The translations under genes and the position numbers were made by a program. Source: Geodermatophilus sabuli (GTDB lineage: Bacteria; Actinomycetota; Actinomycetes; Mycobacteriales; Geodermatophilaceae). From it: DNA of 64,000 bases. Every line of letters starts with the position of its first letter. The first letter of the stretch is position 1. Of the stretch, positions 2,462-7,561 are shown piece after piece. The notes under the pieces are model-generated. The model worked only from the letters and a program-made list of their open reading frames with translations. It was not told where the DNA came from and did no database searches. Location of the stretch: positions 124,001-188,000 of the forward strand of contig NZ_JAAGWF010000007.1 of assembly GCF_010686765.1 (NCBI RefSeq). Reading direction: 5' to 3'.

Positions 2462-2487
2462 GGAATCGGCGTCCGGTGCCCTCGGTT
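2462..2487 (+). promoter_or_regulatory. SigR-type promoter (GGAAT-N18-GTT) upstream of sigR
   Basis: GGAAT at 2462-2466, exactly 18 bases, then GTT at 2485-2487. This is the published consensus of promoters read by SigR/SigH thiol-stress sigma factors in Streptomyces and Mycobacterium. It implies positive autoregulation of the sigR-rsrA pair. The expected start point near 2494 lies next to in-frame GTG codons at 2491 and 2497. Confidence 0.7.
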
Positions 2488-2628: not shown

Positions 2629-3300
2629 GTGCCTGAGGAGTCCGTGGACCAGACGCCCGTCGAGACCCCCGAGGCGCGCTCGGACGGCAGCCGGACCGGG
2701 ATGGACGAGACCCGCGCGGAACGCGACGCCCGCTTCGAGCGCGACGCCCTGCCGTTCCTCGACCAGCTCTACCCGGCGGCGCTGCGGATGACCCGCAACC
2801 CCGCCGACGCCGAGGACCTCGTCCAGGAGACCTTCGTCAAGGCGTACTCCGCGTTCCACCAGTTCGCCGAGGGCACCAACCTCAAGGCCTGGCTGTACCG
2901 GATCCTGACGAACACCTACATCAACAGCTACCGCAAGAAGCAGCGCCAGCCGCAGCAGTACCCCACCGACCAGGTGCAGGACTGGCAGCTGTACGCCGCT
3001 GAGGAGCACAGCTCCAGCGGCCTGCGGTCGGCCGAGATCGAGGCGCTGGACCACCTGCCGGACTCCGACATCAAGGAGGCCCTCCAGCAGTTGCCGGAGG
3101 ACTTCCGGCTGGCGGTCTACCTCGCCGACGTCGAGGGGTTCGCCTACAAGGAGATCGCCGAGATCATGGGCACGCCCATCGGCACGGTGATGTCCCGCCT
3201 GCACCGCGGCCGCCGCGGACTGCAGAAGCTGCTGGCCGACTACGCACGCGAGCGCGGCTTCGTCCGCGCCGGAGCCGGTGAGGAGGCGAGCCAGTCATGA
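2629..3300 (+). CDS. sigR: ECF sigma factor, SigR/SigH family (thiol-oxidative stress)
   Basis: 223 residues from GTG 2629, preceded by AGAGAGG at a 7-nt spacing. Sigma region 2 covers about residues 42-105 ([34 protein letters not shown]), and region 4 about 150-205 ([17 protein letters not shown] then a helix-turn-helix with [21 protein letters not shown]). The stop overlaps the start of the anti-sigma gene (ATGA), the standard sigR-rsrA arrangement. In this family the sigma factor is released when RsrA is oxidised and then drives thioredoxin, mycothiol and protein-turnover genes. The frame stays open upstream to 2446, so a longer isoform is possible; an ATG at 2701 is another internal start. 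Confidence 0.95.
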
Positions 3301-3638
3301 CCGACGACGTCCACGGCCAGGGCGAGCCGATCGAGATCCACTCCTGCGACGACGTCCTGTCCCACGTGTTCGAGTTCCTCGACCACGAGACCGGGGACGC
3401 GCGACGCGCGCTCATCGCCGAGCACCTCGAGGACTGCTCACCCTGCCTGCGCCAGTTCGGCATCGAGCAGGAGTTCAAGGCGCTGGTCCGCCGGCGCTGC
3501 GGTGGTGACGCACCCCCGGTCGGCCTGCGTGACCGGATCAAGATGCAGCTCACCACCGTCTCCTTCGAGGAGGACGGCACGTCGGTCAGCGTCGAGCGCG
3601 TGACCGTCGAGCGGACGGAGGAGCGCCCCACCGCCTGA
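3297..3638 (+). CDS. rsrA: Zinc-containing redox-sensing anti-sigma factor RsrA
   Basis: 113 residues, starting with ATGA overlap on sigR. It has the ZAS motif H43-x3-C47-x2-C50 ([13 protein letters not shown]) and an upstream cysteine C17, equivalent to Cys11 of Streptomyces RsrA, so all four zinc/redox ligands are present. In the family a disulfide formed between the upstream and a motif cysteine expels zinc and frees the sigma factor. The C-terminal 40 residues are acidic and variable. The stop codon is the loop of a perfect terminator hairpin. Confidence 0.95.
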
Positions 3639-3707: not shown

Positions 3708-3782
3708 TCAGGCGTTGGGCCGCTTGCCGTGGTTGGCCTTGTTCCCCTTGCGGGAGCGCCGCTTGCGTCCACGCTTGGACAT
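3708..3782 (-). CDS. Ribosomal protein bL37 (AURKAIP1/COX24 domain), 24 residues
   Basis: A 24-codon gene from ATG 3782 to TGA. The product starts MSKRGRKRRSRKGNKANH and is nearly all basic residues, as in the tiny large-subunit protein bL37 described in mycobacterial ribosomes and conserved in Actinobacteria, where it is often overlooked in annotation. An AGGAGG Shine-Dalgarno lies 6-7 nt before the ATG. It binds 23S rRNA. Its position near sigR/rsrA is inferred to be conserved in relatives. Confidence 0.9.
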   Translation of the reverse strand: MSKRGRKRRSRKGNKANHGKRPNA

Positions 3783-3986: not shown

Positions 3987-5033
3987 GTGGCAGACCTCGG
4001 GATCGAGAGCGTGCTCGTGGCGGGACGCGGACCCGCGGCGTGCGCGGTGGTGGCGGCGTGCTCCCGGCTGGAGGTCAAGGCCGTCGCCGTCCACTCCGAG
4101 GCCGACCGGTCCGCCCGTCACGTGCGGCTGGCCGACGACGCGGTGCTGCTCGGCCCGGCGCCGGCCGCGGAGTCCTACCTGGCCGTCGACCGGATCGTGG
4201 AGGCGGCGCGGCGCAGCGGGGTGGCCGCCGTCCTGCCGGTACCGCCGGCCCTGGCCGGCAACGCACGCCTGGCCGGCGCGGTCGTCGCCGCCGGGCTGAC
4301 CTGGGTCGGGCCACCGGCCGCGGTGCTGGAGCGGCTCGGCGGCGACGGGGTGGAGCCGGCGAGCGAGCGCGGGTTCCTGGCGTGGGTCACCGAGTCGGGG
4401 CTGCGGTACACGACGTCGGTCTCCCGCGACCGCGCGGCGGGGATCGCCCGGGTCTCCTGGACCCCCGACGAGCCGGTGGAACTCCCCCCGGCGGCCGAGC
4501 GGCTGCCGGAGGTCGGCTGGCGCGGCCTGGTGACCGTCGGCATCGCCCCGGACGGCGCGCTGGCCGAGGTGGCCGCCGGCTTCTCCCTGGACATGGCCGT
4601 CCTGGAGCGGGCCCACGGGGTGGACGCCGTCGAACTCGCGCTGCGCAGTGCCTCCGGACGCCGGGGTGCGACCGACGTGTCACCGGGACGCGCCGCCCGG
4701 AAGGCGGTCGCGGTCCAGCTGCGGTCGACCCTGCCACCGGGGGAGGCCGGTCGTGTCACCGGCCGGCTGCCCGAGCCCGGACGCCTACCGGCCCTGTCGC
4801 CCGACGTCGACCTCGTGGCGGTGAGCGGCTACGACCCGGGCGACCGTCTCGACGGCTGGTACGACGCCCTGCTGGCCACCGTGAGCGCGAGCGCCCCCGA
4901 CACCGCGACCGCGGCGCGCGCCGCTGCCGGCGTCCTCGCCGGGCTGCCGCACACGGGCGTGCCGCACGACGCCGCGGAGATCCGCCCGGTGCTCGACCGG
5001 CTGGCCGCCGGCACCCGCGCACCCGCGCGCTGA
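3987..5033 (+). CDS. Degenerate biotin carboxylase-like protein (probable pseudoenzyme)
   Basis: 348 residues from GTG 3987, with AGGAGG at 3972-3977. Residues 7-118 match the N-terminal domain of biotin carboxylases (SVLVAGRGPAACAVV, VKAVAVHSEADRSARHVRLA, DDAVLLGPAPAAESYLAVD, AAGLTWVGPPA). The central ATP-grasp part is short and degenerate: no glycine-rich GGGGRGM loop, and where active enzymes have EMN-R-QVEH this one has LAEVAAGFSLDMAVLERAHG (about 192-211). Residues 240-340 resemble the C-terminal subdomain (GYDPGDRLDGWYDALLATV). Active biotin carboxylases are about 450 residues, so catalysis is unlikely. A stand-alone biotin carrier gene follows 73 nt downstream, which suggests a binding or regulatory role for biotinylated carrier; that is inference. 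Confidence 0.75.
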   Translation: MADLGIESVLVAGRGPAACAVVAACSRLEVKAVAVHSEADRSARHVRLADDAVLLGPAPAAESYLAVDRIVEAARRSGVAAVLPVPPALAGNARLAGAVVAAGLTWVGPPAAVLERLGGDGVEPASERGFLAWVTESGLRYTTSVSRDRAAGIARVSWTPDEPVELPPAAERLPEVGWRGLVTVGIAPDGALAEVAAGFSLDMAVLERAHGVDAVELALRSASGRRGATDVSPGRAARKAVAVQLRSTLPPGEAGRVTGRLPEPGRLPALSPDVDLVAVSGYDPGDRLDGWYDALLATVSASAPDTATAARAAAGVLAGLPHTGVPHDAAEIRPVLDRLAAGTRAPAR

Positions 5034-5106
5034 TCGGCTCGCCGGCCCTGCCGGACCGCCGTCGCCGCGTGCTTGGATCGACCGCAGGTCAGCGAGGGAG
5101 GTGCCG

Positions 5107-5328
5107 GTGGCGGTCGAGGAGATCCAGGCGGAGATGGTGTCCAGCGTCTGGAAGGTGCTCGTGCAGCCGGGCAGCCAGGTGGCGGCCGGCGACACGCTGG
5201 TGATCCTGGAGTCGATGAAGATGGAGATCCCGGTCCTCACCGAGCGCGCCGGCACCGTCCGGGAGCTGCACGTCGTCGAGGGCGAGGTGCTGCAGGAGGG
5301 CGACCTGATCGCCACGGTCGACGGCTGA
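5107..5328 (+). CDS. Stand-alone biotin/lipoyl carrier protein (BCCP-like)
   Basis: 73 residues from GTG 5107 (GTG 5101 is in frame but would overlap the GAGGGAG Shine-Dalgarno at 5093-5099). The whole protein is a single biotinyl domain with the target motif ESMKMEIPV, where the central Lys is biotinylated by BirA. It corresponds to mycobacterial TB7.3 (Rv3221c), which also sits beside the PdtaS kinase, WhiB1 and the SigH system, so this neighbourhood is old. No carboxyltransferase gene is nearby. Function in any organism is unclear. Confidence 0.9.
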   Translation: MAVEEIQAEMVSSVWKVLVQPGSQVAAGDTLVILESMKMEIPVLTERAGTVRELHVVEGEVLQEGDLIATVDG

Positions 5329-5354: not shown

Positions 5355-5630
5355 CCGGAACGCAGCCTCCTCGTCCGACTGCGTCACCTCGCCGAAGTCG
5401 CCCGACAGCACGAGCGCCACGCTGCCCACGACCAGCCCGCGGGCGTCCCGGGCGGCCAGCAGCTGGGCCCGCCCGGCCCGCCCCGCGACGTCACCCAGCT
5501 GGGTCGCGTAGTCCGGTGAGGCCAGGCCGCCGGCCGGGTAGACCGCGACGGTCAGGTCGGCGATCCGGGGGGAGTCCGCCGGTCCGGCCGTCTCGACGGA
5601 CAGGGGCGACGCATCGGCGGGGGAGACCAC
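5355..5630 (-). pseudogene. Truncated GNAT acetyltransferase remnant
   Basis: From GTG 5630 about 92 codons read as the N-terminal half of a GNAT protein: an N-terminal strand/helix (SPRIADLTVAVYP), then AQLLAARDARGLVVGSVALVL and a linker ending in DEEAAFR. At the point where the acetyl-CoA-binding motif A (RxxGxG/A) should follow, the frame turns into unrelated arginine/serine-rich residues and the terminator hairpin of the neighbouring gene. The second half of the domain is therefore missing. I read it as a deletion remnant; a short functional product seems unlikely. Confidence 0.6.
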
Positions 5631-5723: not shown

Positions 5724-7208
5724 ATGAACAGCCTCTCCGAACGCCTGACCCGCGGCGCGGCCTCCGCCCCCGCGCAGGTCGACCACGCCCGCCGGCTGGT
5801 GGCCGACTGGCAACTGCTGGCCGACCTGTCCTTCGCCGACCTGACCCTCTGGGTCCCGTTGGCGGGCGGGTCGTGGTGGTGTGTGGCGCAGGTGCGCCCG
5901 CTGACCGCGCCGACCAGCCAGCCCGACGACCTGGTCGGCTCCGAGGTGGCCGGGCCCACGTCCGAGCCGTTCGACGTGGCGCACCGCGAGGGCCGCCCGG
6001 TCACCGAGGGCGAGCCGGACTGGTCGGGCACCACCCCACGGCGCCGTGAGGTGATCCCGGTGCGGCACGACGGTGTGGTCGTCGCCGTCCTGGCCCGCGA
6101 CACCAACCTCGCGGTGACCCGGTCGCCGTCCACGCTGGAGCTGACCTACCTCGACATCGCCGCCGACCTCTGCCTGATGGTGTCGGCCGGCACCTTCCCG
6201 CCGCAGAAGCCGCTGGACGCCGAGATCAGCCCCCGGGTGGGCGACGGCCTGGTGCGCCTCGACGGCGACGGCTGCGCCGTCTACGCCAGTCCCAACGCGC
6301 TGTCGGCCTACCGGCGCATGGGCGCGACCGGGGACGTCGTGGGCGCGGACCTGGCGGGCCTGACGCGGGACGCCGCGGCCGACCGGGTGGCCGGGGAGGC
6401 GGTGGCGGCCGGCATCCGGGCCGCGGTCGCCGGCCGCTTCCCCGACCCGACCGACGTCGAGGGCGCAGCGGCCATCCTCCTCGTGCGGGCGCTGCCGCTG
6501 CAGGCGCCCGGTGGGGAGGCCGGCGCGCTGGTCCTGGTCCGTGACGTCACCGACGTCCGCCGGCGCGACCGGGCGCTGCTCACCAAGGACGCCACCATCC
6601 GCGAGATCCACCACCGGGTGAAGAACAACCTGCAGACCGTCGCCGCGCTGCTGCGGCTCCAGGCCCGGCGGATGACCGAGCCCGCGGCGCGCGAGGCCCT
6701 GGAGGAGTCGGTGCGGCGGGTCTCCTCGATCGCCGTGGTGCACGAGACGCTGGCCGGCAGCCGCGAGGACGTCGTCGACGTCGACGACGTCCTCGACCGG
6801 GTGCTGCCGATGCTGGGCGACCTGACGTCGGTCGGCCCGGCCGCACGGGTCCGCCGGGTCGGCCACGTCGGGGAGCTGCCGGCGGAGGCCGCCACGCCGC
6901 TGGTGCTGGCGGTGACCGAGCTGCTGCACAACGCCGCCGAGCACGCCTTCCCCGACGGCAGCCCGGGCGCCATCGAGCTGGTGGCCGAGCGGGACGGCGA
7001 CGACCTCGTCGTCCGGGTCTGCGACGACGGCCGCGGGCTACCGGAGGGCTTCGACCCCGCGGTCAGCGAGGGACTGGGCCTGCAGATCGTGCGGACCCTG
7101 GTCACCAGCGAGCTCGGGGGCAGCCTCCGCATGGGCCGGCCCGGCGGCGACCGGTCGGGCACCGAGGTGGTGCTCACCCTCCCCGGAGCCGCCCGGCTGC
7201 GCCGGTGA
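5724..7208 (+). CDS. pdtaS: Sensor histidine kinase PdtaS homologue (HisKA_2, HWE/HK group)
   Basis: 494 residues. N-terminal residues about 10-155 form a GAF-like domain, residues about 180-275 a PAS-like domain, then the dimerisation/phosphotransfer helix EIHHRVKNNLQTVAALLRLQ with the phosphorylatable His at 296 or 297, and a C-terminal HATPase with TELLHNAAEHAF, VCDDGRGLP and GLGLQIV. There is no membrane segment. Mycobacterial PdtaS is a cytosolic kinase that phosphorylates the RNA-binding antiterminator PdtaR; no pdtaR gene is in this window. It sits between the biotin carrier and whiB1 as in mycobacteria. A long terminator hairpin follows. Confidence 0.93.
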   Translation: MNSLSERLTRGAASAPAQVDHARRLVADWQLLADLSFADLTLWVPLAGGSWWCVAQVRPLTAPTSQPDDLVGSEVAGPTSEPFDVAHREGRPVTEGEPDWSGTTPRRREVIPVRHDGVVVAVLARDTNLAVTRSPSTLELTYLDIAADLCLMVSAGTFPPQKPLDAEISPRVGDGLVRLDGDGCAVYASPNALSAYRRMGATGDVVGADLAGLTRDAAADRVAGEAVAAGIRAAVAGRFPDPTDVEGAAAILLVRALPLQAPGGEAGALVLVRDVTDVRRRDRALLTKDATIREIHHRVKNNLQTVAALLRLQARRMTEPAAREALEESVRRVSSIAVVHETLAGSREDVVDVDDVLDRVLPMLGDLTSVGPAARVRRVGHVGELPAEAATPLVLAVTELLHNAAEHAFPDGSPGAIELVAERDGDDLVVRVCDDGRGLPEGFDPAVSEGLGLQIVRTLVTSELGGSLRMGRPGGDRSGTEVVLTLPGAARLRR

Positions 7209-7309: not shown

Positions 7310-7561
7310 TCAGGCGGTGCGCACCCGAGTACGAGACTGGCGCCGCTTCAGCGCGCGCCGCTCGTCCTCGGACAGCCCACCCCAGACGCCGGAGTCCTGA
7401 CCCGAGCGCAGGGCCCAGTCCAGACACGACTCGACGACGGGGCAGCGCCGGCACACACCCTTGGCCTGCTCGATCTGCACGGTCGCCGGGCCGGTCGTCC
7501 CGATGGGGAAGAACAGCTCCGGGTCCTCGTCGCGGCAGAGCGCGCGGTGGCGCCAGTCCAT
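7310..7561 (-). CDS. whiB1: WhiB-family iron-sulfur transcription factor, WhiB1-like
   Basis: 83 residues from ATG 7561. The four cluster-binding cysteines are C9, C37, C40 and C46 (GVCRRCPVVESCLDWA), followed by the GVWGG turn and a basic C-terminal tail (RRALKRRQSRTRVR) used for DNA contact. Length and position beside pdtaS and the biotin carrier identify it as WhiB1, an essential NO-responsive protein with a 4Fe-4S cluster that binds the housekeeping sigma factor. Upstream are a TTGACA promoter and a CRP-type palindrome, matching the known CRP control of mycobacterial whiB1. Confidence 0.95.
   Translation of the reverse strand: MDWRHRALCRDEDPELFFPIGTTGPATVQIEQAKGVCRRCPVVESCLDWALRSGQDSGVWGGLSEDERRALKRRQSRTRVRTA

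Follow-up and report, generated by a model that had tools for sequence, protein, structure and literature searches.

What does a biotin carboxylase (BC) that has lost its active site do beside the gene of an isolated biotin carrier? The question is raised by a 64,000-nucleotide stretch of the Geodermatophilus sabuli genome (contig NZ_JAAGWF010000007.1), further referred to as the window, where two co-directional genes lie between rsrA and pdtaS. The upstream gene encodes a BC homologue, here called the pseudo-biotin carboxylase (PBC). The downstream one, starting 73 nt 3' of PBC, encodes a single-domain carrier, and the place between rsrA and the carrier gene is called the slot. Judged from its sequence, PBC fits a pseudoenzyme, that is, a BC homologue without catalytic residues that is retained by selection. 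It almost certainly originated from a BC encoded in the slot through loss of catalysis and, its active site being lost but the protein preserved, probably does some other job now. The features of the pair are as follows (coordinates are positions in the window).

3987..5033 (+): PBC, 348 amino acids (aa), GTG start; BC N-domain, ATP-grasp lid lost, C-terminal region eroded (open reading frame (ORF), Pfam, alignment)
4002..4328 (+): Biotin_carb_N domain of PBC, aa 6–114 (Pfam)
4347..4457 (+): ATP-grasp deletion site of PBC, aa 121–157, about 37 residues in place of about 125 in intact BCs; boundaries approximate (alignment)
4560..4607 (+): former catalytic segment of PBC, aa 192–207, LAEVAAGFSLDMAVLE, corresponding to FLEMNTRLQVEHPVTE of the relatives (alignment)
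4827..4886 (+): C-terminal conserved patch of PBC, aa 281–300, GYDPGDRLDGWYDALLATVS; the intact-BC counterpart is GYxxGDxVTPxYDPLLAKL (alignment)
5107..5328 (+): single-domain biotin carrier, 73 aa, with the ESMKM lysine; NCBIfam NF004547, PRK05889 (ORF, profile match)

The N-domain of PBC (aa 6–114) matches Biotin_carb_N (PF00289) in Pfam with an E-value of 9.1e-28 and 97.4 bits, the cut-off being 25.5. Biotin_carb_C (PF02785) reaches 16.7 bits, below its cut-off of 32.4, and the same region is aligned by hhalign; PF02786, the ATP-grasp model, is not matched at E ≤ 1. Comparison of 14 pseudo-BCs with 19 intact BCs by hhalign yielded a probability of 99.9 and an E-value of 6.7e-36. Since this alignment pairs PBC residues 6–325 with columns 5–419 of the BC profile, PBC is a collinear, internally shortened BC. 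In the alignment with intact relatives the gap falls on the ATP-grasp lid with its glycine-rich loop and QRRHQK region. PBC has neither the loop nor the QRRHQK segment and lacks most of EMNTRLQVEH: this last motif is replaced by EVAAGFSLDM, HPGYGF by LPVPPA, and the HAIExR arginine by glutamine. The catalytic roles of these residues are known from the E. coli BC. Among EMNxRxQVEH, QRRHQK and the HAIExR arginine, the sole survivor is the first glutamate of EMN, E194 of PBC, kept in the window's protein and in all 119 homologues (120/120 sequences). Compared with stand-alone BCs of the AccC type (solved matches include 1BNC, 2C00 and 8HZ4), PBC is homologous over most of its length, and its N-domain shares 39–58% identity with the top matches listed for other families, but the lid and nearly all catalytic residues are gone, and the protein has 348 aa instead of about 448. 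PBC should not be a functional BC and should be unable to use ATP or bicarbonate.

The preliminary description of this locus presented the protein as a BC homologue that lacks the glycine-rich loop and the EMN-R-QVEH segment and keeps both terminal subdomains. The loss of the ATP-grasp site stands, no intact one being seen in the sequence alignment with BCs, with the correction that the EMN glutamate is retained; the N-terminal subdomain is kept well, and the C-terminal one is eroded. An intact enzyme with an unusual ATP site was rejected because the entire lid is missing.

The carrier scores 112.9 bits against NF004547, above the curated cut-off of 75, and the ESMKM biotinylation site is present, in agreement with the lone 73-residue biotinyl domain reported next to PBC in the preliminary description. 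It is a PRK05889 biotin carrier by this match, and its biotinylation in the cell is predicted. The PRK05889 family presumably includes mycobacterial TB7.3, and we take the window carrier to be of the TB7.3 type. Five further places in the same genome match PBC, and there are five carboxyltransferase matches and twelve biotin/lipoyl matches, several of the latter being probably lipoyl domains. By position, each of the other BC matches is accompanied by a carrier domain, either in its own reading frame or nearby. As we read these coordinates, every biotin-type carrier of the genome except that of the window has a live BC of its own.

The pair is a property of a whole family. Further in the text the window's family (Geodermatophilaceae) is denoted f1, and other families of the order are labelled by number (f3, f4, f7 and so on). 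PBC has 1054 homologous proteins at E ≤ 1e-5; the best 120 of these 1054 are the window's own protein and 119 others at 75–88% identity, and among the relatives carrying homologues are Geodermatophilus, Blastococcus and Trujillonella. Among 150 genomes sampled from the order, a full-length match was found in 18/18 f1 genomes, and 0/132 genomes outside f1 reached an E-value below 1e-31. A full-length match at E ≤ 1e-60 occurs in 97 of 112 f1 genomes (91 of the 96 good ones). Eight of the remaining 15, from three genera, have strongly diverged pseudo-BCs of 272–352 aa in the same slot, and five have a partial PBC gene at a contig end. Two were not judged: in G181 the contig stops before the gene, and G212 has no carrier match at the threshold. 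In all 26 family loci measured, PBC and the carrier share a strand, with PBC 16–109 nt upstream. Chance pairing of the two genes was rejected given these close co-directional loci. So was a frameshift or assembly error behind PBC, as open copies are found in 97/112 family genomes, and so was a pseudo-BC limited to one genus, diverged copies occurring in further genera. The gene-neighbour conservation that the preliminary description proposed to check thus extends far beyond one genome.

The ratio of nonsynonymous to synonymous substitution rates (dN/dS) was calculated by the Nei–Gojobori method for 25 within-genus pairs from 18 loci. For PBC it ranges from 0.087 to 0.373, with a median of 0.205 derived from the listed values, and the N-domain is the most constrained part (median 0.147). 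In two diverged genera the PBC values are 0.193–0.255 (6 pairs) and 0.299–0.345 (3 pairs). The carrier gives 0.020–0.222 in 23 pairs, and the other two pairs show zero nonsynonymous change. We also chose 25 former active-site or neighbouring positions and considered a position fixed if at least 95% of the 120 sequences agree. By this measure, 23/25 chosen positions are fixed; the residue is replaced at 20/25, and 18 of these 20 are fixed, compared with 188/343 positions overall. The PBC remnant is, by these estimates, kept by purifying selection together with the carrier.

We compared 60 loci from 13 other families of the order, each taken around the best carrier match of its genome; some of these stretches end early. 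The genes sigR, rsrA, carrier, pdtaS and whiB1 occur all together in f4 (14/14 loci), f3 (5/5), f8 (7/8, the eighth being interrupted by a contig end) and f15 (3/3). The window thus shares its neighbourhood with PRK05889 carriers of relatives, as had been proposed for carriers of the TB7.3 type. Upstream of the carrier, an intact BC is found in f9 (2/2 loci), f3 (1/5) and f10 (2/6). Both flanks, rsrA and the carrier, are seen in f9 (2/2), f3 (1/5) and f10 (1/6), rsrA of the second f10 locus lying outside the view. The f9 BC has rsrA and the carrier as its immediate neighbours; further sequence or genes intervene in f3 and f10. In f7 (1/1 genome) the BC is fused in frame to the carrier, giving a protein of 537 aa; protein P0327 reads identical to this locus and was counted once. 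A lost stop codon or an assembly fault might account for the fusion. Degenerate BCs precede the carrier in f12 (2/2 loci) and in one further f10 genome. The intact BCs between rsrA and the carrier in related families, in one genome fused to it, suggest that this carrier type probably had its own BC, now degenerate in at least three families. An orphan carrier family, TB7.3 presumably among its members, gains a probable ancestral partner, and the intact slot BCs, one of them carrier-fused, are ready material for asking what loads the carrier. Unlike the window, the loci fetched from f4, f8 and f15 have no BC-like ORF in the slot. In two f3 loci (L081, L104), another ORF of 334–337 aa, monooxygenase-like by eye, occupies the BC's place between rsrA and the carrier. 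A contig scan with intact BCs, using generic patterns, found SigR, RsrA and carrier together in none of 80 loci among the matches listed.

Family f10 spans several of these states, the state of the slot being covered for 10 of its 24 genomes. A slot-type BC, 86–91% identical to an f10 query, is present in three genomes, in one of them shortened. Degenerate BCs are found in four: G009, G248 (at a contig end), G053 (about 240 aa) and G089 (about 122 aa). In three f10 genomes fetched with their carriers, no BC-like ORF lies within 3.3–5 kb upstream. In L076, L085, L117, L253 and L256 the BC, intact or degenerate, is followed by enoyl-CoA hydratase-like and peptidase-like genes (labels by eye). 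The carrier comes after the peptidase-like gene in L076 and L117, and after one more ORF in L085. The degenerate BC of G089, ahead of the hydratase-like gene, is little more than an N-domain. Among six further f10 stretches, L254 and L255 (a BC N-domain with no sigR, rsrA, hydratase-like gene or carrier) were not counted as slot BCs, and neither was f10 L257, whose intact BC lies away from the slot.

In two BC trees the pseudo-BCs of f1 and f12 form one clade with three further lidless proteins, P0125, P0126 and P0147 (support 84 and 80). This clade sits inside a group of slot BCs and some non-slot BCs, among them those of Micromonospora, Actinoplanes and Actinomadura. The locus tree, contrary to the BC trees, keeps f1 and f12 apart (support 63 and 70 near the base), and the BC trees may be misled by long branches. 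The degenerate N-domain of G009 joins the f1 forms in the second BC tree; BLAST instead places it closest to intact f10 BCs, which favours a separate decay in this lineage. By the BC trees and the locus tree taken together, catalysis may have been lost once or several times. Lidless relatives outside f1 (P0123, P0125, P0147) match the second half of PF02786, and Biotin_carb_C above its cut-off. Since they are less reduced than PBC, the lidless forms make a graded series. A metagenomic protein of 391 aa, P0199, is a BC without the lid that keeps QRRHQK and most of EMNTRLQVEH and groups with a non-slot BC; it may represent an early stage or reflect an assembly fault. Two loci of Micromonospora and Actinoplanes (L134, L135) are clusters resembling, by eye, methylcrotonyl-CoA carboxylase operons, containing a BC of about 445 aa and lacking a carrier domain.

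It remains to weigh what job the preserved protein may do. In the explanation that we prefer, the ancestral slot BC would have carboxylated this carrier, and PBC would use the N-domain and the part of the C-domain that it retains to engage the carrier or another BC, serving as a dock, an assembly factor or a brake; any carboxylation of the carrier would then fall to a different BC of the cell. We regard it as evenly balanced whether PBC is a BC pseudoenzyme still engaging the carrier as dock or regulator; that it binds the carrier or a carboxylase is plausible, if a little short of even. A wider version appears doubtful, namely that the order's dedicated BC of TB7.3-type carriers was repeatedly made lidless and non-catalytic while still docking the biotinylated carrier, which would belong to a regulatory or assembly module and not to a carboxylation cycle. 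The preliminary description had seen in PBC a new type of partner. It is a neighbour of the carrier indeed, but rather as the decayed form of a BC that is intact in the same slot in relatives and, in one genome, fused to the carrier. Several observations weigh against the docking explanation. The C-terminal third of PBC is its least constrained part (median dN/dS 0.325 versus 0.147 in the N-domain), and the BC dimer-interface arginines, whose positions we presume from the E. coli enzyme, are replaced in the window's PBC. The 120 sequences are close relatives (75–88% identical), and the fixation of residues partly reflects plain relatedness. In f12 the pseudo-BC is separated from the carrier by 848 and 948 nt, and 51 of the 60 other-family loci have no BC-like ORF in the slot (10 of these 51 without rsrA in view). 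For G053 and G089, no carrier lies in the stretch read (L253, L256), and the best genome-wide carrier matches are weak (8.8e-12 and 2.7e-9, respectively). Because L253 and L256 keep a degenerate BC all the same, the pairing is not obligatory in f10.

These two f10 genomes, along with the 51 loci having a carrier and no slot BC, suggest that the N-domain may have a ligand of its own. PBC would then be in an unrelated job, its Rossmann-like N-domain binding a small ligand (free biotin, a nucleotide or acyl-CoA) or another protein, with the carrier as a historical neighbour. The strong constraint on the N-domain, the new fixed residues at former active-site positions and the persistence of the f10 degenerate BC, in one case as hardly more than an N-domain, are consistent with this, but the close co-directional pairing in 26/26 family loci is not, and we consider it unlikely though possible. 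A functionless, slowly decaying relic heading to the absence seen in other families would agree with the graded shortening across lineages and with the 51 slots lacking a BC-like ORF. Such a relic is highly improbable in view of dN/dS values far under 1 both in the crown genera and in two diverged ones, of full-length or diverged open copies in 105/112 family genomes and of the fixed new residues. Intact BCs are homodimers, and PBC might form a heterodimer with one of the cell's active BCs and tune it, the carrier being merely co-expressed. The five other PBC-matching places of the genome fit this reading; the replaced interface residues argue against it and make it improbable. Finally, the preliminary description suggested that PBC is perhaps a sensor of biotin state linked to thiol stress or PdtaS/WhiB1, a suggestion for which the gene neighbourhood speaks; such a sensor of biotinylation would act in the SigR or PdtaS/WhiB1 circuits. 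We searched the whole window for the SigR promoter consensus (GGAAT-N18/19-GTT, zero mismatches permitted). Two exact sites were found (2462, 62004), compared with 0.11 expected by chance; the one at 2462–2487 (+) is upstream of sigR, and none is upstream of the PBC–carrier pair. The link to PdtaS and WhiB1 varies with the neighbourhood between families: in the stretches seen, some of them shortened, no WhiB1 match accompanies the BC–carrier units of f9, f7, f12 and f10, and PdtaS is either missing or 4–5 kb off. The sensor is scarcely credible on these grounds.

The best solved match of the window carrier is 1z6h, which we take to be YngHB. According to excerpts of PMC4016012, BLAP of B. subtilis (YngHB) is, like the window carrier, a lone single-domain carrier beside carboxylase subunits, perhaps those of methylcrotonyl-CoA carboxylase; the neighbouring BC of the window, in contrast, is dead. 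Rv3221c (TB7.3) is described as a putative biotin carboxyl carrier protein subunit (PMC3048393), a biotinylated protein (PMC11126594) and a T-cell antigen (PMC13043089), and the excerpts of these three papers name no partner. In plants, the non-catalytic carrier relatives BADC are reported to help assembly of the BC–carrier complex, others reading them as inhibitors (PMC11926652). BADC of the plastid acetyl-CoA carboxylase resembles PBC as a non-catalytic subunit relative, retained as an assembly factor or regulator. It is a pseudo-carrier without the biotin lysine, whereas in the window the pseudo-subunit is the BC, next to an intact carrier. In the passages of literature examined, BADC appears to be the nearest analogy for the role of PBC. 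No bacterial pseudo-BC is among the matches listed in the literature searches. The degenerate copies are natural experiments in which a carboxylase subunit outlives catalysis.

The genes around the pair are listed below.

2701..3300 (+): SigR-type extracytoplasmic function sigma factor, TIGR02947; start approximate (profile match)
3297..3638 (+): RsrA-type anti-sigma factor, TIGR03988 (profile match)
3708..3782 (-): basic 24-aa ORF between rsrA and PBC, matched in several family loci too
5724..7208 (+): PdtaS-type histidine kinase, PF12282 (Pfam)
7310..7561 (-): WhiB-family protein, WhiB1-like, PF02467 (Pfam; coordinates from ORF)

The 24-aa ORF we take to be ribosomal protein bL37. Between the carrier and pdtaS, at 5370–5612 (-), there is a weak acetyltransferase remnant of 84 residues (E 0.001); the acetyltransferase at this place is near full-length in 11 of the 15 family loci compared.
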